Assembly: GCF_004365175.1 (NCBI RefSeq)
Contig: NZ_SOCE01000002.1
Location: 806,001 to 870,000 of the forward strand
Source of the DNA: Kribbella voronezhensis
GTDB lineage: Bacteria > Actinomycetota > Actinomycetes > Propionibacteriales > Kribbellaceae
DNA length: 64,000 nucleotides
Direction of reading: 5' to 3'
The notes under the pieces were generated by a model. The model made no database searches and was not told the DNA's origin. It saw only the letters and a list, made by a program, of their open reading frames with translations. Both the position numbers and the translations under genes were made by a program. This document shows, in pieces, positions 51,538 to 61,436 of this stretch. Positions within the stretch are counted from its first letter, which is position 1; every line of letters starts with the position of its first letter.

Positions 51538-52368
51538 TCAGCCCTTCTGGGCGGTGGTGGCGACCCCGTCGAGGATGTAGCGCTGGCCGAAGGCGAACAA
51601 CACGATCATCGGTACGACGGCGATCACGCTCGCCGCGATCGCGATCTCCCACTCGTAGTGACCGGACAGGGCGAAGGCGTCGATCAGCTGTTTCAGGCCG
51701 CGCGGCATGGTGAAGTACTCCGGCGTCTGCAGGTAGATCAGCGGCTTCATCAGGTCCGACCAGCTGGCCTTGAACTCGAAGACGAAGACGATCACCAGCG
51801 CCGGTTTGCACAGCGGGAAGGCGATCCGCCGGAACATCGACAGGTAGCCGCAGCCGTCCACCCGGGCCGCCTCGAACAGTTCCCGCGGGATGCCGAGGAA
51901 GAACTGGCGGAGCAGGAAGATGTAGAAGGCCGAGCCGAACAGGTTCTGCGCCCACAGCGGGATCTGGGTGTCGATCAGGCCGAGCCGGTTCCAGATCAGG
52001 TACACCGGGATCATCGTCACGGCGCCCGGCAGCATCATCGTCGACAACACGATGCCGAACAGCAGGTTCCGGCCGCGGAACCGGAAGTAGGCGAAGCCGA
52101 AGGCGACCAGCGCGCTGGACAGCGTCACCGTCGCGGCAGCCATGAAGCCGACCGTCAGCGAGTTGACCAGCCACCGCATCACCGGGCCCGCGTCCCACAC
52201 CCGAACGTAGTTCTGCGGCTGGAAGACCGCCGGGATCAGCCGGTTGTCGAACACCTGGGAGCGCGGTTTGAGCGACGCGCTGATCAGCCAGACCAGGGGA
52301 TAGACGAACAGGAAGGTCGCGGCGACCAGCGCGACCAGGAACGGCAGGCGGCGCCAGGGAATCGTCAT
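51538..52368 (-). CDS. carbohydrate ABC transporter permease (MalG-like)
   Basis: A 276-residue permease with six helices. The EAA loop, which contacts the ATPase, is EAARVDGCGYLSMFRRIAFPLCKPAL, matching the MalG/CUT1 consensus. It forms the membrane channel with the gene upstream; the stop of that gene and this ATG are separated by three bases. No ATPase gene is in the locus, so a shared MsiK-type ATPase is likely, as is usual in actinobacteria. Confidence 0.93.
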   Translation of the reverse strand: MTIPWRRLPFLVALVAATFLFVYPLVWLISASLKPRSQVFDNRLIPAVFQPQNYVRVWDAGPVMRWLVNSLTVGFMAAATVTLSSALVAFGFAYFRFRGRNLLFGIVLSTMMLPGAVTMIPVYLIWNRLGLIDTQIPLWAQNLFGSAFYIFLLRQFFLGIPRELFEAARVDGCGYLSMFRRIAFPLCKPALVIVFVFEFKASWSDLMKPLIYLQTPEYFTMPRGLKQLIDAFALSGHYEWEIAIAASVIAVVPMIVLFAFGQRYILDGVATTAQKG

Positions 52369-52371
52369 GCC

Positions 52372-53277
52372 TCAGCGCTCCCCGTGGTAGTAGACGTACC
52401 GGTTGCCGATCCGGACCTGGACGAAGGTGATGCCCAGGATGATCACGAAGAGCAGCCAGGCCATCGCCGAGGCGAAGCCCATCTTGAAGAACTGGAAGGC
52501 GTTCTGGAACAGGTAGACCATGTAGACCAGCGACTCCTCCGACGCGGCGGCCTTCTGCTGCGGCCCGTAGAACATCGTGTACGCCTGGTCGAACATCTGC
52601 ATCGCCGCGATCGTGTTGGTGATGACCGTGAAGAAGAGTGCGCCCGAGATCATCGGCACGGTGATCCGGAAGAGCCGGGTCACCGGTCCGGCGCCGTCCA
52701 GTTCGGCCGCCTCGTACAACTGCCGCGGTACGCCGTTGAGCGCGGCGAGGTAGATCACCACGGTGCCGCCGAGGGTCCACAGACTGACGATCGCGAGCGA
52801 CGGTTTCAGCCAGTTCGGGTCGGTGGTCCAGTTCGGGCCGTTGATCCCGAACCAGCCGAGGACCTTGTTCACCAGGCCTTGCTGGCCGTTCAGCAACAGC
52901 AGGAACATCGCACCGGCGGCGACCGCGGGTGTCATCTCGGGCAGGTAGAACGCGGTCCGGAAGAACCCGCTGGCCCGGCCGACCCGCTGCAGCATCAGCG
53001 CGAGCCCGAGAGCCGCGACGGTGCCGAGCGGTACGAACATCGCCGCGTACACGAAGGTGTTGCTCAGCGACTTCAGCACCCGCGGGTCGTCGAACAGCGC
53101 ACGATAGTTGTCGAAGCCGACCGGGCGAGGACTGCGGATCATCTGGTAGTCGGTGAAGGACAGCACCAGGCTGGCGATCATCGGACCGGCCGTGAAGATC
53201 AGGAAGCCGGCCACCCAGGGGAGGACGAAGAACCAGCCGGCCCGGTTCTCCCGGCGTACCAGCTCACTGCGCGGCAT
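52372..53277 (-). CDS. carbohydrate ABC transporter permease (MalF-like)
   Basis: A 301-residue CUT1 permease with six helices. EAA motif: EAAELDGAGPVTRLFRITVPMISGAL. The N-terminus RRENRAGWFFVLPWVAGFLIF is typical. ATG 53277 overlaps the binding-protein stop by one base (TGATG), so binding protein and permease are co-translated. Pairs with the MalG-like permease. Confidence 0.93.
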   Translation of the reverse strand: MPRSELVRRENRAGWFFVLPWVAGFLIFTAGPMIASLVLSFTDYQMIRSPRPVGFDNYRALFDDPRVLKSLSNTFVYAAMFVPLGTVAALGLALMLQRVGRASGFFRTAFYLPEMTPAVAAGAMFLLLLNGQQGLVNKVLGWFGINGPNWTTDPNWLKPSLAIVSLWTLGGTVVIYLAALNGVPRQLYEAAELDGAGPVTRLFRITVPMISGALFFTVITNTIAAMQMFDQAYTMFYGPQQKAAASEESLVYMVYLFQNAFQFFKMGFASAMAWLLFVIILGITFVQVRIGNRYVYYHGER

Positions 53278-54644
53278 CAGCCCTGACTCGCCTTGTCGAA
53301 GGCCGCCTTCGCTTCGGTCTGCGCCTGATCGAGCGCGGCCTGCGGTGTCGCCGTACCGCCGAGGGCCTTGCCGACGGCGCTCTTCCAGGCCGCCTCGATC
53401 TCCGCCCCGGCCGCGGACGGATTGAGCGGCTTGGCCACGTCGAGGCTGGCGTAGTAGTTGTTGATCGCCTGGTCGAAGCCCGGATCGCCGGTGGGCTTCA
53501 GGTACTTCGCCTTGATCTGCTCGTCGGCGACCTTGTTGCCGGTGAACAAGCCGGTGAAGAACGTCTTGTCCTTGGCGACGGTCTGCATCCGGGCCTCGGC
53601 CGCCTTCTGCCAGGTGTCCACCGCGGTCAGCGTCTTGGCCCACTTGCAGGCCGCGTCCTGATTCTTGGCGCCTTTGGGGACGACCCAGGCCGAGCCGCCC
53701 AGCGTACTGATCGGCTTGCCCTGGCGGTCGGTGAACATCGTCGACTGCAGTTTCAGCCCGTTGCGCCGGGAGTCGAGCAGCACGTTCAGGTACCAGTTCT
53801 CGATCGGCATCACCCCGAGCTGGTCCTGGGTGAACTGGTTCTTCTCACCGAAGATGTCGAAGGTGTCGCGGAAGGTCTTGAAGTTCGACCAGCCGCCCTG
53901 GTCGTTGACCAGCTTGATCGCATACGTCAGCGCTTCGACGGCCTTGGGGTCGTTCAGGTTCGGCTCGCCGCCCGGTTTGATCAGCTCGGCGCCGTTGTTC
54001 AGCGCCCAGAGCGGGAAGAAGTCGGGCATCCGCGGGTCGTAGCCGATCCGCGCCGGCCGCCCGTTCTTGGCCTTGTACAGCTTCTTCGCCGTCTGCTCCA
54101 GCTTGCCCCAGTCGGTGGTCTGGATGTCGGCCGTCTGTACTCCGGCGGACGCCAGTGCCGTGCTGTTGATCAGGTTCACGGTGACTGTGTAGAACTCCGG
54201 GATGCCGTAGGTCTTGTCCTTCAGTTTGACCTCGTTCAGCGCGGCCTCGCGGTACTGGCCGGTGTCGATGTCGTTGTTCTTGATGCAGTCGTCGAGCGGC
54301 AGGATCGCGCCCTTGGCGGCGTACGTGCCGACCAGATTCCGGGCCATGTAGACGACATCCGGCGCATTGCCGCTGGAAACCGCGGTGAGGAACTGCTGGG
54401 CATCGAAGTCGCCTTTGTTGTTCTTCACCGTCACGGACGGATAAGCGGCCTTGAAGGCCGCGATGCGCGACTGCGCCACTTCGTCCTCACCGCTGAAACC
54501 CATCACATTCAGGGTTCCGGTGGGTGTGGAGCCGGCCGATCCGGCCTTGCCGCCGGTGTCGTCCTTGCCGCCGACCCCGGCGCAGGACGTGATGACCAGA
54601 GCTCCGGCGGCAATACCCGCCAACGCCCACCCGCTGTTCTTCAT
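53277..54644 (-). CDS. extracellular sugar-binding lipoprotein of ABC transporter
   Basis: A 455-residue family 1 solute-binding protein. The N-terminal signal ends in a lipobox, ALVITSCAG, with the lipid-modified Cys at about 22, followed by a Gly/Asp/Lys linker. TGTLNVMGFSGEDEVAQSRIAAFKAAYPSV and VVYMARNLVGTYAAKGAILPLDD are classical. It delivers an oligosaccharide to the two permeases. ATG 54644 with GGGGAGG four bases before. First gene of the sugar operon; the ligand is unknown, but the putative glycosidase downstream should cleave it. Confidence 0.93.
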   Translation of the reverse strand: MKNSGWALAGIAAGALVITSCAGVGGKDDTGGKAGSAGSTPTGTLNVMGFSGEDEVAQSRIAAFKAAYPSVTVKNNKGDFDAQQFLTAVSSGNAPDVVYMARNLVGTYAAKGAILPLDDCIKNNDIDTGQYREAALNEVKLKDKTYGIPEFYTVTVNLINSTALASAGVQTADIQTTDWGKLEQTAKKLYKAKNGRPARIGYDPRMPDFFPLWALNNGAELIKPGGEPNLNDPKAVEALTYAIKLVNDQGGWSNFKTFRDTFDIFGEKNQFTQDQLGVMPIENWYLNVLLDSRRNGLKLQSTMFTDRQGKPISTLGGSAWVVPKGAKNQDAACKWAKTLTAVDTWQKAAEARMQTVAKDKTFFTGLFTGNKVADEQIKAKYLKPTGDPGFDQAINNYYASLDVAKPLNPSAAGAEIEAAWKSAVGKALGGTATPQAALDQAQTEAKAAFDKASQG

Positions 54645-54770
54645 GCTGCCTCCCCATTTCCGCAACCTTCAGTCCGCAGCACTGGTACCCAGACCTAGTA
54701 CTCGCCGTTAATAAGGCCGCCGAGCGGGAACCTCGCTGATTCGCAGTTCGCCCGCTCACAGGAGGCAACG

Positions 54771-55652
54771 ATGTTTTTCCACCGTCAGGAACTGCAGTTC
54801 AAATCCACCCCGGACCGCGCGGACGCCGTCTACGCGCGCAAGTTGCAGGAGGTGCTCGGCGGTCAGTACGGCGAGATCACCGTCGCGATGCAGTACATGT
54901 TCCAGGGCTGGAACATGCACACCCCCGGCAAGTACCGCGACCTGGTCTTCGGCGTCGGAGCCGAAGAGGTCGGCCATGTCGAGATGCTCGCGACGATGAT
55001 CGCGCAACTGCTGGAGAAGGCGCCGCTCGGTATCACCGACGACGCCGTCCAGGACGACCCGACGGTCGCGGCCGTGATCGGTGGCACCGACATCCAGCAC
55101 GCCATCGTCGCGGGGGCCGGCGCCCGCGCGGTCGACAGCATGGGTAACCCCTGGCAGGGCAGCTACATCACCGCCAGCGGCAACCTGCTGGCCGATTTCC
55201 AGGCCAACGCCAACGCCGAGATGCAGGGCCGGGTGCAGGTCGCCAGGCTCTACCACATGACCGACGACCACGGCGTCCGTGACCTGCTCTCGTTCCTGCT
55301 CGCTCGAGACACCATGCACCAGAACATGTGGCTGGCGGCCGCCGCCGAGCTGCGCGAGGAGGGCGCCGAACTACTCCCGGTCCCGAGCAACTTCCCGCAG
55401 AACAAGGAACACACCGAGGTCTCGTACCAGTACCAGAACTTCAGCGACGGTCCGGCCGCGAGTGAAGGCTCCTGGGCGAAGGGGCCGACACCCGACGGCA
55501 ACGGCGAGTTCACGTACCACGACGGGTCGACGACCAGCGCGCCGATGCCGGCGCCCACCCGGCCGGACGCGCGGTTCTACGGCACGACCGACCTGCCGAA
55601 CCTGATGGAGAAGACCGCGGGCAAGGTCCAGGACAAGCTCAAGAAGGAGTGA
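54771..55652 (+). CDS. manganese catalase
   Basis: A 293-residue non-haem catalase that splits hydrogen peroxide at a di-manganese site. The four-helix bundle ligands are visible: ELQFK near residue 9, GGQYGEITVAMQYMFQGW near 28-45, EEVGHVEM at about 64-71, and DLLSFLLARDTMHQNMW with the last Glu/His ligands. The C-terminal tail (TEVSYQYQNFSDGP, Pro-rich) is the usual extension. AGGAGG precedes the ATG by seven bases. Its end overlaps the convergent MFS gene by 14 bases. Confidence 0.95.
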   Translation: MFFHRQELQFKSTPDRADAVYARKLQEVLGGQYGEITVAMQYMFQGWNMHTPGKYRDLVFGVGAEEVGHVEMLATMIAQLLEKAPLGITDDAVQDDPTVAAVIGGTDIQHAIVAGAGARAVDSMGNPWQGSYITASGNLLADFQANANAEMQGRVQVARLYHMTDDHGVRDLLSFLLARDTMHQNMWLAAAAELREEGAELLPVPSNFPQNKEHTEVSYQYQNFSDGPAASEGSWAKGPTPDGNGEFTYHDGSTTSAPMPAPTRPDARFYGTTDLPNLMEKTAGKVQDKLKKE

Positions 55653-57683: not shown

Positions 57684-58391
57684 ATGGCTGAGCTGGATCG
57701 GACCACCTTGCTGGCCCGGCTGGCGAGATTGATCGCCGACGACGACAACGGCCTGCAGCTGGAGACGCGTCTTTGCCGTGCCTATCTGGCGATGATGTCG
57801 GGAGACGGCGCGGCCCTCACGCTGTCCTACACCGAGCCGGAGCGGGTGACGCTCTGTACGACCGACGATCTGGCGGCCCGGCTGGAGGACCTGCAGGACG
57901 TGCTCGGCGAAGGGCCCGGGCCGACGGCGTACGTGACCGAGCAGATCGCGGTCGCCGACCTGCGGGCCGAGACCGGCCAGTGGCCGCTGTTCACCGACGC
58001 CGCGCGCAAGGTCCCGGGCGCCGCGGTCCTGTACGCCATCCCGATCCGGCCGTGGAACGACGGTGTCATCGGGGTGCTGACGATCCATCAGCACACGACG
58101 GAGTTGCCGGATGCGGGTCAGGCGCAGTTCCTGGCGAGCGCGATCGGTGCCGCCCTGGTCAAGGACCCACCGGTCGAGTTCTCCCTCGGCTCGGGGCCCT
58201 GGACGACCCGGTCGGAGATCCATCAGGCCACCGGCATGGTGGTGGCCCAGTTGCGGATCAGCCCCGACGACGCGCTCGCGCTGCTGCGGGCGCACGCGTT
58301 CTCCCACGACATCACCTTGGCGGCGGTGGCCGAACTCATCACCAGCCGGCGCCTGCACTTCACCGACGACGCCGAAAGCGAGACTCCATGA
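57684..58391 (+). CDS. GAF-ANTAR transcription antitermination protein (1)
   Basis: A 235-residue regulator. Residues about 15-165 form a GAF-like sensor domain (LEDLQDVLGEGPGPTAYVTEQIAVADLRAE; AIPIRPWNDGVIGVLTIHQH). Residues about 175-228 are an ANTAR domain (EIHQATGMVVAQLRISPDDALALLRAHAFSHDITLAAVAELI), a helix bundle that binds paired RNA hairpins and prevents termination. The signal is unknown. Overlaps the next ANTAR gene by ATGA. Confidence 0.92.
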   Translation: MAELDRTTLLARLARLIADDDNGLQLETRLCRAYLAMMSGDGAALTLSYTEPERVTLCTTDDLAARLEDLQDVLGEGPGPTAYVTEQIAVADLRAETGQWPLFTDAARKVPGAAVLYAIPIRPWNDGVIGVLTIHQHTTELPDAGQAQFLASAIGAALVKDPPVEFSLGSGPWTTRSEIHQATGMVVAQLRISPDDALALLRAHAFSHDITLAAVAELITSRRLHFTDDAESETP

Positions 58392-59089
58392 CTGCCGCTA
58401 CCGCTTCGCAAGCGTTCGTGGACGCCGCCGCGGCCATGGTCCAGCAAGACGATGTCGCCGACACCCTGACCCGGCTACTGGCCGACTGCGCGAAGTTCAC
58501 CGCCGCGGACGCGATCGGGCTCCTGGTCAAACACGAGGACGGCTCGCTGGAGATCCTGAGCGCCACCTCGCACCACGCGGCGCAGCTCGAGCTCTACCAG
58601 CTCCAGCAGGACTCCGGGCCATGCGTCGACGTGGCTCAGAACGGCTCCGCGTTGTCGGTCGCCGGCGATGCGGAGCTCGTCGAGCGCTGGGGTCGGGTGG
58701 GTGAGGCGATCATCGCCGCCGGATACCACGCCGTGCACGCGGTCCCACTGCGGTGGCACGGCCGGCTGATCGGTGCGATGAACGCCTTTCACAGCGCGCC
58801 GGAGACCGCCGACGGAGAGGCCGAGCAGCTGACCCAGGCCTTCGCGGACATCGCCGCCGTGGTGATCATCCAGTCCCACGAACTCACTCCCGGTCAGCTC
58901 GACGAGCGGATCCGGACGGCGCTGGCCGGCCGGACGGTGATCGAGCAGGCCAAAGGCGTCCTCGCCCAGCTCTCGCGCGTGGACATGGCCGCCGCCTACG
59001 ACCTGCTCGTCCGGCGAGCAACCGACGGCGGCGTCAGCCTGACCCAGGCGGCGAACGGGATCATCGGGGAAGCGCGCAAGCGGCCGTGA
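58388..59089 (+). CDS. GAF-ANTAR transcription antitermination protein (2)
   Basis: A 233-residue protein with the same layout: GAF (residues about 20-160: ADAIGLLVKHEDGSLEILSATSHHAAQLELYQLQQDSGPCVDVAQNG, then AIIAAGYHAVHAVPLRWHGRLIGAMNAFH) and ANTAR (residues about 172-228: VIEQAKGVLAQLSRVDMAAAYDLLVRRATDGGVSLTQAANGII). Made from the same message as protein 1, judged by the ATGA overlap at 58388-58391; the two may form a heterodimer. Confidence 0.93.
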   Translation: MTAATASQAFVDAAAAMVQQDDVADTLTRLLADCAKFTAADAIGLLVKHEDGSLEILSATSHHAAQLELYQLQQDSGPCVDVAQNGSALSVAGDAELVERWGRVGEAIIAAGYHAVHAVPLRWHGRLIGAMNAFHSAPETADGEAEQLTQAFADIAAVVIIQSHELTPGQLDERIRTALAGRTVIEQAKGVLAQLSRVDMAAAYDLLVRRATDGGVSLTQAANGIIGEARKRP

Positions 59090-59152
59090 TCAGTACTGCG
59101 CCGCCGGCGCGGCCGATCGCTTGGAACGACTCTGGAGGGGTACCGGCCGGAA

Positions 59153-59854
59153 ATGGATGATCGGGAACTGATGGAGGCTGCGGCCCGGCTGGTGAAGTCG
59201 CTGACGCCGGGCGACCTGGACCACACGCTGAGCCGGATCACGGCGGCGGCGGTCGAGGTCCTCCCGGAGGTGGAGTACGCGAGCATCACGGTCAAGCACA
59301 GCGACGGCCGGCTGGAGACGGTGGCGCCGACCGACGAGGTGCTGTGGGGTGTCGATGCAGCGCAGTACGACCTGCAGGAAGGGCCTTGTTACGAGGCGGC
59401 TGTCGACACGGCGCACGTCATCTCGCCCGACCTGGCCGCCGACGCGCGGTTCCCGCGGTACGCCACGACCGCCGTGGCGGTCGGGATCCGGGCCCAGGCA
59501 GGGCTCCGGCTCTTCGACGCACCGAGATCGCAGGGTGCGCTCAATCTCTACTCCACCGAAGTCGGTTCGTTCACGGACCTGGGATCGCTCGGGCAGCTCT
59601 TCGCCCATCAGTCGGCACTGGCGATCGGATACGCCCAGGAGGTCGACAACCTGCAGGTGGCGCTGCAGACCCGGCGGACGATCGGGCAGGCCATCGGGAT
59701 CCTGATGGAGCGCTACAGCCTGACCGACCAACGGGCGTTCGCCTTCCTGACCAGACTTTCCCAGCACGGCAACGTCAAGCTCAACCGGGTGGCCGAGCAG
59801 CTCGTCGGCGATGCCGAGAACAAGGGCGAACGCGGTACGGGCCAGGATCGCTGA
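59153..59854 (+). CDS. GAF-ANTAR transcription antitermination protein (3)
   Basis: A 233-residue GAF-ANTAR protein. GAF: PEVEYASITVKHSDGRLETVAPTDE, DLQEGPCYEAAVDTAHVISPDLA, RLFDAPRSQGALNLYSTE. ANTAR: RTIGQAIGILMERYSLTDQRAFAFLTRLSQHGNVKLNRVAEQLV. The sequence is closer to protein 4 (60747) than to proteins 1 and 2. GGAGGGG lies 12 bases before the ATG at 59153, a longer spacing than usual. It converges on the STAS-ANTAR gene with seven bases between. Confidence 0.92.
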   Translation: MDDRELMEAAARLVKSLTPGDLDHTLSRITAAAVEVLPEVEYASITVKHSDGRLETVAPTDEVLWGVDAAQYDLQEGPCYEAAVDTAHVISPDLAADARFPRYATTAVAVGIRAQAGLRLFDAPRSQGALNLYSTEVGSFTDLGSLGQLFAHQSALAIGYAQEVDNLQVALQTRRTIGQAIGILMERYSLTDQRAFAFLTRLSQHGNVKLNRVAEQLVGDAENKGERGTGQDR

Positions 59855-59861
59855 CCCGGCC

Positions 59862-60578
59862 TCAAGCCGTGTAGTTGCCGCTCCGGAGCCCGGCGGCGAT
59901 GTCGACCAGCAGCGCGTCGGTCGTGACCGGTTCGAGCTGTCCGCCTTGCCGCTGGCGCACCGCTGCCACGAAGTGCTCCGCGAGGACACGCAACGGAACT
60001 CTGCTGTTGCGCGAGTGCCAGGTGAGCATCGCGAACGCCGCGTCGGCCTCCAGCCCGTAGACCGCCATCAGGATCCCCTTCGCTTGATCGATGGTTGCCC
60101 GGGACAACAGCGCCCGGTGGAGCTGCCGTACTTCGGCCAGCAGGGTCTGCTGATCGGGCAGCGCGGCTCCCGGTGTGGCCAGCATCCCCTCGACGGCCTC
60201 GGCGACCGTCTCGAACGTCCGGAGCTGCTGGGGGCGATCACCGCAGAGCCGGTGCAGAAGCAGGCGCTGCGCCCGGCGGAAACCGGCGACCCCGACCGGT
60301 AACCCGGCCGCACTGTGGACGACGGCCTCGGCCAGCGCCGTCAGCCCGGTTTCGTCCGAAGGGGCGAGCGTCGTCGCGTCGATCAGGATGCGCTCGGGTC
60401 GCTGAGTCGACGCGTCGTGCAGGATCGAGCGCAGCGGCCGGCCCGAGCGGCTGGTGAGCCGGCCGATCAGCCGGGCGATCAGCAACGGGGGAGTGAAATC
60501 CAGGTCGACCTCGAGGTCGGAGCACGGCCGGGCCGCCCAGCGGAACCGTGGTCCGGGACTGTCAGGGGATGGTTGCAC
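59862..60578 (-). CDS. STAS-ANTAR hybrid regulator
   Basis: A 238-residue protein on the opposite strand. Residues about 20-120 look like a STAS/anti-sigma-antagonist-like domain (FTPPLLIARLIGRLTSRSGRPLRSIL; ERILIDATTLAPSDETGLTALAEAV), followed by an ANTAR domain (residues about 155-212: ATIDQAKGILMAVYGLEADAAFAMLTWHSRNSRVPLRVLAEHFV). It could link partner-switching stress signals to RNA antitermination. GTG start at 60578 with GAGG seven bases upstream. Confidence 0.88.
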   Translation of the reverse strand: MQPSPDSPGPRFRWAARPCSDLEVDLDFTPPLLIARLIGRLTSRSGRPLRSILHDASTQRPERILIDATTLAPSDETGLTALAEAVVHSAAGLPVGVAGFRRAQRLLLHRLCGDRPQQLRTFETVAEAVEGMLATPGAALPDQQTLLAEVRQLHRALLSRATIDQAKGILMAVYGLEADAAFAMLTWHSRNSRVPLRVLAEHFVAAVRQRQGGQLEPVTTDALLVDIAAGLRSGNYTA

Positions 60579-60746
60579 CGCAAATCCTCACTGGCGAGGT
60601 GGGATCCAGGCTGCGCACTCAACCTGTGTCCAAGGTAGGCAGGCCACGCGCTTTGCGTCCAGGCGAAGAGCGCCGTCGGCAACGGCCCGGATCAGGCGTA
60701 CTGTCGAAGACATCCCATTCAGCTCCTCCGGACGGAGGGCCAGGAC

Positions 60747-61436
60747 ATGGAGCTGCGCGAACTCATCGCCGTGATGACGGACGTCGCCGAGACGCTGCAG
60801 TTACCGATCGACCTGACCGATGCCCTCGCCGTGATCACCCGCTCGGCGGCGGAGTCCGTTCCCGGGGTCGATCACGTCAGCATCTCGGTGACGGCGAGGA
60901 ATCACCAGATCCAGACACTGGCCCCCACTGATCCGGTGGCCGTCCGTGCCGACGAACTGCAGTACACACTGCGGGAAGGTCCGTGTTACGAGGCGGTCCA
61001 CGGCCGGCCGGTCGTCCAGGTGGACGACCTCGCCACCGACCCGCGCTGGCCGAGCTACGGAGCCCAGGCGGCCTGCCTGTTCGGGCTGGGATCGCAGCTG
61101 GCCTTCCAGTTCGAGGCCGCACCACACGTCCGGGGCGCACTGAACCTGTACTTCGACCGTCCGTCCGCGATCGACCCCGAAACCCGCCAGTTCGGCATGA
61201 TGTTCGCCCGGCTGGTCGCGCTCGCGCTCGGCTGGGCCCGGCAAGGCGAGACGATGACCCGGGCGCTGCAGTCGCGCACCACGATCGGGCAGGCCGTCGG
61301 CATCCTGATGGAGCGCTACCGGCTGGACGACGACCGCGCCTTCTCCTTCCTGGTCCGCCTGTCCCAGTCGACCAACGTCAAACTCCACGACGTCGCCGCC
61401 GGCATCATCACCGACACCGTCAACCACGCCGGCTGA
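60747..61436 (+). CDS. GAF-ANTAR transcription antitermination protein (4)
   Basis: A 229-residue GAF-ANTAR protein very similar in plan to protein 3 (GVDHVSISVTARNHQIQTLAPTDPV; TLREGPCYEAVHGRPVVQVDDLA; RTTIGQAVGILMERYRLDDDRAFSFLVRLSQSTNVKLHDVAAGII). The shared ILMERYxLxDxRAF core suggests a local duplication. ATG 60747 after GGAGGGCCAGGAC. It is divergent from the STAS-ANTAR gene. Confidence 0.92.
   Translation: MELRELIAVMTDVAETLQLPIDLTDALAVITRSAAESVPGVDHVSISVTARNHQIQTLAPTDPVAVRADELQYTLREGPCYEAVHGRPVVQVDDLATDPRWPSYGAQAACLFGLGSQLAFQFEAAPHVRGALNLYFDRPSAIDPETRQFGMMFARLVALALGWARQGETMTRALQSRTTIGQAVGILMERYRLDDDRAFSFLVRLSQSTNVKLHDVAAGIITDTVNHAG

Follow-up and report, generated by a model that had tools for sequence, protein, structure and literature searches.

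Why do five genes for ANTAR-domain proteins lie side by side in the genome of Kribbella voronezhensis, and do any of them act together? Actinobacteria have many ANTAR proteins, the RNA targets and working form of which are mostly unknown. We analysed a 64,000-nucleotide stretch of this genome (contig NZ_SOCE01000002.1, positions 806,001–870,000; hereafter, the window), in which five adjoining ANTAR genes, labelled A to E in order of position, occupy positions 57684–61436. The central result concerns the first two of them: judged from their sequences, A and B are separate clades of GAF-ANTAR proteins that have diversified together. What is new is this conserved, unequal pair; the protein family itself is known. 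We describe below the occurrence of the pair, its phylogeny and its RNA-contact residues, and weigh the proposal that A and B may form a single heterodimer.

A and B recur as an overlapping gene pair

The stop codon of A and the ATG of B overlap as ATGA, and a start in the B frame overlaps or touches the A stop in 35 of the 43 A–B pairs measured. Within Kribbella, 26 of 33 distinct A-type genes have a B-type gene as their immediate same-strand neighbour downstream; two of the remaining genes are followed by an ordinary GAF-ANTAR gene and five by neither. This count covers the window and loci L001–L104, and only A-type matches whose locus was fetched; it takes in the A–B pairs at L102 and L104, as well as an A-clade gene at L070 that has neither the motif nor a B. 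Other genera of the class carry the A–B pair at 22 of 29 loci (L105–L133, one per genome, the best-scoring). Among these 22 pairs, the A protein of L131 has Asp replacing the His of the motif, and in two pairs B extends past the fetched stretch. In other classes of the phylum, where eight of 11 places were fetched, the pair is found for four of seven A-type genes, and the eighth place holds a B-type gene alone. Matches to the A profile (expect value (E) of 1e-40 or better) are present in 55 of 197 sampled genomes of the class, a number in which matches near the limit may be B-type, as was one seen in other classes.

All seven class loci without the pair belong to one genus, g39. Each of these seven g39 genomes contains another A-type match with an immediately following second match in the same orientation, as judged from positions only, not from sequence. 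At five g39 loci (L106, L107, L108, L111 and L113), A lacks a following B-type gene and is immediately preceded by an ordinary GAF-ANTAR gene, before which stands a third ANTAR gene at L106–L108 and L111. In another A–B lineage (L076, L077, L050 and L104), the pair is immediately preceded by an ordinary GAF-ANTAR gene of the same orientation, so that three ANTAR genes stand in succession. The K. voronezhensis genome also contains an orphan B-type gene (L019:8300–9007; C1:406812); it is 37% identical to B, and the 18 kb fetched at this locus contain no A-type match.

A and B have diversified together

In a quickly computed tree of 67 hand-chosen rows, A, B and the remaining GAF-ANTAR proteins form three branches, with Shimodaira–Hasegawa-like approximate likelihood ratio test (SH-aLRT) values of 98, 99 and 99. 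A larger tree of 172 rows resolves an A clade of 60 rows (SH-aLRT 99) and a B clade of 47 rows (SH-aLRT 98), which together include six rows labelled otherwise by motif. Pairwise distances in A are correlated with those in B, with a Mantel r of 0.87 over 46 pairs and of 0.91 over the 24 Kribbella pairs (p = 0.0001 in each case, the lowest value attainable with 9,999 permutations). Within a single genus, A and B types match in several parallel lineages, a pattern that is harder to explain by species history alone.

RNA-contact residues differ between A and B

The reference used here is EutV of Enterococcus faecalis (PDB 6wsh and 6ww6), which, like the proteins studied here, is an ANTAR protein, and the dimer of which binds RNA with asymmetric contacts, as described in PMC8934654 and PMC3369931. 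EutV is a homodimer with a REC input domain, whereas A, B, C and E carry GAF and D carries STAS. These papers report that EutV binds RNA as a dimer, the minimal RNA-binding unit (PMC3369931), and that both ANTAR domains of the dimer can touch one hexaloop, unequally (PMC8934654). The residues contacting G4 of the loop are given there as K149, E160 and Y164; Y164 forms a stack with the flipped G4, M172 plugs the loop, and the E160A and Y164A mutations lower affinity by 60- and 55-fold, respectively (PMC8934654).

We counted residues at these positions, in EutV numbering, by tree clade (60 A proteins, 47 B proteins and the remaining 65), because the motifs that define the A and B classes include position 149 and class-based K149 counts would thus be circular. 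K149 is present in 0 of 60 A proteins, 46 of 47 B proteins and 7 of the remaining 65. An aromatic residue occupies position 164 in 7 of 60, 46 of 47 and 63 of 65 proteins, respectively. At position 172, all 60 A proteins have an aromatic residue and no protein of the other two groups does; Arg is found there in 36 of 47 B proteins and Gln in 52 of the remaining 65. R168 is kept in 57 of 60 A proteins. On this sequence evidence, A is set apart by the lost stacking aromatic at position 164 and by the aromatic at the plug position 172, and not by the loss of K149. Moreover, Q189, A197 and A203 are invariant in the 24 aligned A proteins; because these positions are not part of the motif by which the rows were selected, their invariance suggests that the ANTAR domain of A is under selection and not in decay.

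Among the five proteins of the cluster, positions 149, 160 and 164 are occupied by T, P and L in A, by K, M and Y in B, by I, D and F in C, by K, A and F in D, and by V, D and F in E. None of the five has the full G4-contact set of EutV, and A has none of its three residues. Of 11 RNA-contact residues of EutV, A matches two, B three, C one, D four and E one. Such a count alone does not exclude RNA binding, because the Nakamurella LOV receptor PAL (PDB 6hmj), whose PDB title calls it an RNA-binding receptor and which has K149 and F164, matches only two of the 11.

A possible A:B heterodimer

Of the possible arrangements, we favour an A:B heterodimer in which B reads G4 over separate homodimers and over inhibition of B by A, because coupled paralogues of which one has a G4 pocket and one does not resemble a fixed asymmetric dimer. 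We infer heterodimerization, RNA binding, ligands and targets alike, and would put the chance that this proposal is right at about even. A and B would most likely be produced together through overlapping translation and assemble with each other, so that the unequal hexaloop contacts of the EutV dimer would here be fixed in two genes. B would retain the pocket for the flipped G4, formed by K149 and the aromatic at position 164. A, in which the pocket is gone, Arg168 is kept, position 172 is aromatic and position 149 is mostly Thr, would serve as the second subunit, contributing its own GAF input and probably a distinct contact to RNA or protein. A ligand bound to either GAF domain would switch RNA binding and thereby alter how target mRNAs are transcribed or translated. 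C, D and E would be additional ANTAR sensors, of different lineage, that gather around pairs of this kind.

Several observations weigh against this proposal. A and B point to the same nearest pair in just 30 of 46 cases (Kribbella alone: 17 of 24), and the Mantel correlation stems partly from species history, though to a lesser degree inside the genus. Co-inheritance and gene overlap are expected of any shared operon and are no proof of contact. K149 is absent from 58 of the 65 proteins outside the two clades, so its loss is not special to A; E160 is rare in all clades, which makes EutV an imperfect guide here. Finally, 17 of 69 A-type genes have no adjacent B-type gene (seven in g39, seven in Kribbella and three in other classes), and B can occur alone, as at L019 of the same genome. 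These last two facts would fit A and B being independent homodimeric regulators, brought together by a shared operon and related signals, and the conserved ANTAR surface of A, which may read an RNA of its own, would fit as well. We nonetheless consider independent homodimers unlikely, as the constant gene order, the tight overlap and the matched subclades across genera and classes exceed what co-regulation would need.

The altered residues of A raise a different prospect, namely that A is an antagonist that does not bind RNA and that keeps B inactive within a heterodimer until a ligand is bound. A has lost K149 and mostly lost the aromatic at position 164, as such an antagonist might, and the overlap of the two genes would suit it too, since overlapping genes favour about equal amounts of protein. 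Against this stands the retention in A of the EutV RNA-contact positions R168 (57 of 60) and aromatic 172 (60 of 60), and we regard an antagonist as less likely again than independent homodimers.

With the A:B heterodimer as the preferred arrangement, the pair can be set against what is known of related proteins. A passage in Ramesh et al. (2012) (PMC3369931) states that no ANTAR protein combined with GAF or PAS had been characterized by then, and the word 'heterodimer' is absent from that article. The actinobacterial one-component regulator SCO7423 combines GAF and ANTAR in one protein, as do A, B, C and E; its gene is divergent from the MarR gene sco7424, and no paired form is described in the available sections of that report (PMC12838073). 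Titles and opening lines of abstracts in the open-access literature searched yielded no description of paired or heterodimeric ANTAR proteins, nor of 'STAS-ANTAR'. If the proposal is true, and one member of a co-inherited pair has an altered RNA face, looking for canonical EutV-like sites would miss the mark for part of the ANTAR proteins.

The five genes and their genomic setting

All five proteins exceed the curated cut-off of 27.3 bits for the Pfam ANTAR family (PF03861), with 36.7 bits for A, 47.8 for B, 67.4 for C, 68.6 for D and 70.6 for E. The initial annotation of this DNA, which had reported five ANTAR proteins in under 4 kb, is thus correct down to its exact boundaries, although it left unmentioned that D lies on the minus strand (Table 1). 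Its division into four GAF-ANTAR proteins and one STAS-ANTAR hybrid is borne out by Pfam, by structural models and by STAS matches within the D family. The GAF domains of B, C and E score above the Pfam cut-offs. That of A is undetected by Pfam; the AlphaFold2 model of A (predicted local distance difference test (pLDDT) 85.7) matches solved GAF domains, which identifies A as a GAF-ANTAR protein. All but one of the 50 VIA-align rows shown for these GAF matches end at residue 177 or before, and the ANTAR fold of A is therefore assigned from Pfam and the helices of the model, without a structural match. NCBIfam gives no above-cut-off match for any of A–E.

Table 1 Features of the ANTAR gene cluster and of the leader of D (window coordinates)
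Feature	Positions	Strand	Description	Basis
A	57684–58391	+	GAF-ANTAR protein with a divergent 'HQATG' ANTAR domain; upstream member of the pair	Pfam ANTAR, A-type alignment, AlphaFold2 model, A clade
B	58388–59089	+	GAF-ANTAR protein; downstream member of the pair; ATG overlaps the A stop	Pfam GAF and ANTAR, B clade
C	59153–59854	+	Ordinary GAF-ANTAR protein (SQxxNxKL type); starts 63 nt past B	Pfam GAF_2 and ANTAR, own Kribbella subclade
D	59862–60578	−	STAS-ANTAR hybrid; convergent with C	Pfam ANTAR, family STAS matches, Foldseek, profile alignment to SpoIIAA
E	60747–61436	+	Ordinary GAF-ANTAR protein; divergent from D	Pfam GAF, GAF_2 and ANTAR; subclade apart from C
P2	60586–60599	−	Candidate leader hairpin of D with a 4-bp stem; hexaloop GCCAGT lacks A1/G4; GAGG ribosome-binding site forms the 3′ arm	
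P1	60607–60626	−	Candidate leader hairpin of D with a 7-bp stem (one G-U); hexaloop AGTGCG has A1 and G4	Kept in three D orthologues including this one

The clustering is real. The 8.03-Mb genome contains 16 ANTAR matches, five of which lie within 57684–61436, and in 200,000 uniform random placements of 16 genes no more than three ever fell within any 3.75 kb. The suggestion in the initial annotation of paired sensors fits A and B, on the strength of their recurrent pairing, gene overlap and co-diversification; its view of the third and fourth GAF-ANTAR proteins, C and E, as a local duplication is not borne out. C and E fall in separate supported subclades, each with genes of other Kribbella genomes, and a single clade of the two with their orthologues in G014 (Kribbella monticola) is rejected by the approximately unbiased test (p-AU 7e-44, 22 rows). 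C and E are 45% identical to each other; the nearest paralogue of C within the genome is 65% identical and lies about 158 kb away, and those of E are 60–61% identical and also lie elsewhere.

Do C, D and E belong to a circuit with the pair? The locus may instead be a mere collecting place for ANTAR paralogues in an ANTAR-rich genus, with no circuit beyond A–B, a view that is compatible with an A:B heterodimer and that seems to us evenly balanced between true and false. ANTAR proteins are indeed common in Kribbella, with 7–30 per genome in 26 genomes. Among the 16 pair loci with long flanks (in two of which the second gene is an ordinary GAF-ANTAR), 12 have a further ANTAR match within 5 kb, that of L075 being merely a 93-residue frame. 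The neighbouring families of 14 pair loci are mostly locus-specific, the exceptions being ANTAR genes, a set common to this genome, G014 and G029, and a putative CBS-domain-like family in four. Two points run counter to simple collection: C, D and E are of different lineage and thus not fresh duplicates of one another, and in G029 relatives of C and E again stand beside A and B in a cluster.

The STAS-ANTAR protein D

D is, by its structural model, a STAS-ANTAR hybrid. The N-terminal part of the model (pLDDT 82.9) matches SpoIIAA, RsbS and RsfB in Foldseek and the C-terminal part matches EutV and PAL. The STAS domain of D itself is below the Pfam threshold (E 0.2); all six D-family members match STAS at E values up to 1, the best being 1.2e-6. 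The input domains of PAL are PAS and LOV, the names they carry in the PDB, as against STAS in D; by sequence, PAL is the closest solved relative of the ANTAR domain of D (E 2.7e-10). The N-terminal domain shares the fold of the SpoIIAA and RsbV anti-sigma antagonists, from which D differs by its fusion to ANTAR and by a Glu at the first Ser of the D-S-S-G motif of SpoIIAA. We take this first Ser to be the phospho-acceptor, which fits the DASG/DSSG difference between SpoIIAA chains. The position is Glu in four and Ala in two of the six D-family members, and none of the six has the SpoIIAA-type acceptor serine (D-S-x-G).

The orthologue of D in K. monticola is 84% identical. D is rare, with matches at 1e-20 in five of 38 Kribbella genomes; among 296 sampled genomes of the class, weak matches occur in five others, several of them to the ANTAR part only.

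RNA targets and the leader of D

Canonical dual hexaloops with A1 and G4 were sought on both strands of 257 kb of the genome, comprising the window and 11 other ANTAR loci. With stems of at least 4 bp, nine were observed against a shuffled mean of 9.7, and with stems of at least 5 bp, none against 1.0. The initial annotation had predicted that each protein binds two-hexaloop RNA and had suggested a genome search for such motifs. In these 257 kb the search thus stays at the level of shuffled sequence, and the prediction is not supported by residues for A, which has no EutV G4 contacts, or for C and E, which have no K149; as PAL illustrates, residues do not decide against RNA binding. Rfam yields no match at the gathering threshold in the window and one chance-level match in the cluster, and no conserved RNA was seen in the leader of A, which is too divergent among the eight orthologues. 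Single A1/G4 hexaloops with stems of at least 5 bp occur in 10 of 112 leaders of ANTAR genes, against a shuffled mean of 5.1 and maximum of 9, some of these leaders having script-picked start codons that are too far upstream for two D orthologues. This excess is not specific, because a count of 12 is reached by loops in which both positions are G.

The leader of D contains two hairpins, P1 and P2 (Table 1). The two-hexaloop fold is present in the window and in G014; in G029, P1 forms in this way and P2 adopts another fold; and in G009, where the P1 loop has lost A1, the strand folds differently and neither hairpin forms. Dual hexaloops of actinobacterial ANTAR-target RNAs can cover the ribosome-binding site, as described by Mehta and Ramesh (2021; PMC8164766), and the D-leader hairpins do likewise; they differ from those RNAs in that the second loop has no A1/G4 and in that there is no covariation, with just one one-sided change among them. 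The z-scores of the fold are modest (−1.1, −1.1 and −2.9, and −0.8 in G009). Pairs of a P1-like hairpin (at least 7 bp, with A1/G4) and any second hexaloop number 11 against 8.0 in shuffled sequence, two of the 11 having an end resembling a ribosome-binding site. As similar pairs thus occur at chance number, the only distinctions of the D-leader pair are that it lies over the ribosome-binding site and that it is conserved in three orthologues.

In 38 Kribbella genomes, the D-leader element (up to two mismatches) is found before D in three and at one two-mismatch site in G008; a reversed control pattern gives two matches. With matches confined to D leaders and this one site, there is no sign of targets in trans. 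The conserved hairpin pair over the ribosome-binding site offers a weak lead for autoregulation of D, and an operator for a DNA-binding protein at this element is equally possible, although the stem, if read as RNA from the plus strand, would be broken by a C-A mismatch. A broader scheme would join these elements: A–B as an ancient, actinobacteria-wide class of heterodimeric ANTAR proteins that arose by gene duplication, in which B would hold the flipped G4, the aromatic 172 of A would make a new RNA contact and two GAF signals would be combined at one loop, and D as a protein that would regulate its own translation through the hexaloop pair over the ribosome-binding site. We think it improbable that this scheme holds in full.

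Genes for an ABC transporter and a manganese catalase (51541–55649 in the window; locus L058 in G029) lie near the ANTAR cluster in both genomes.

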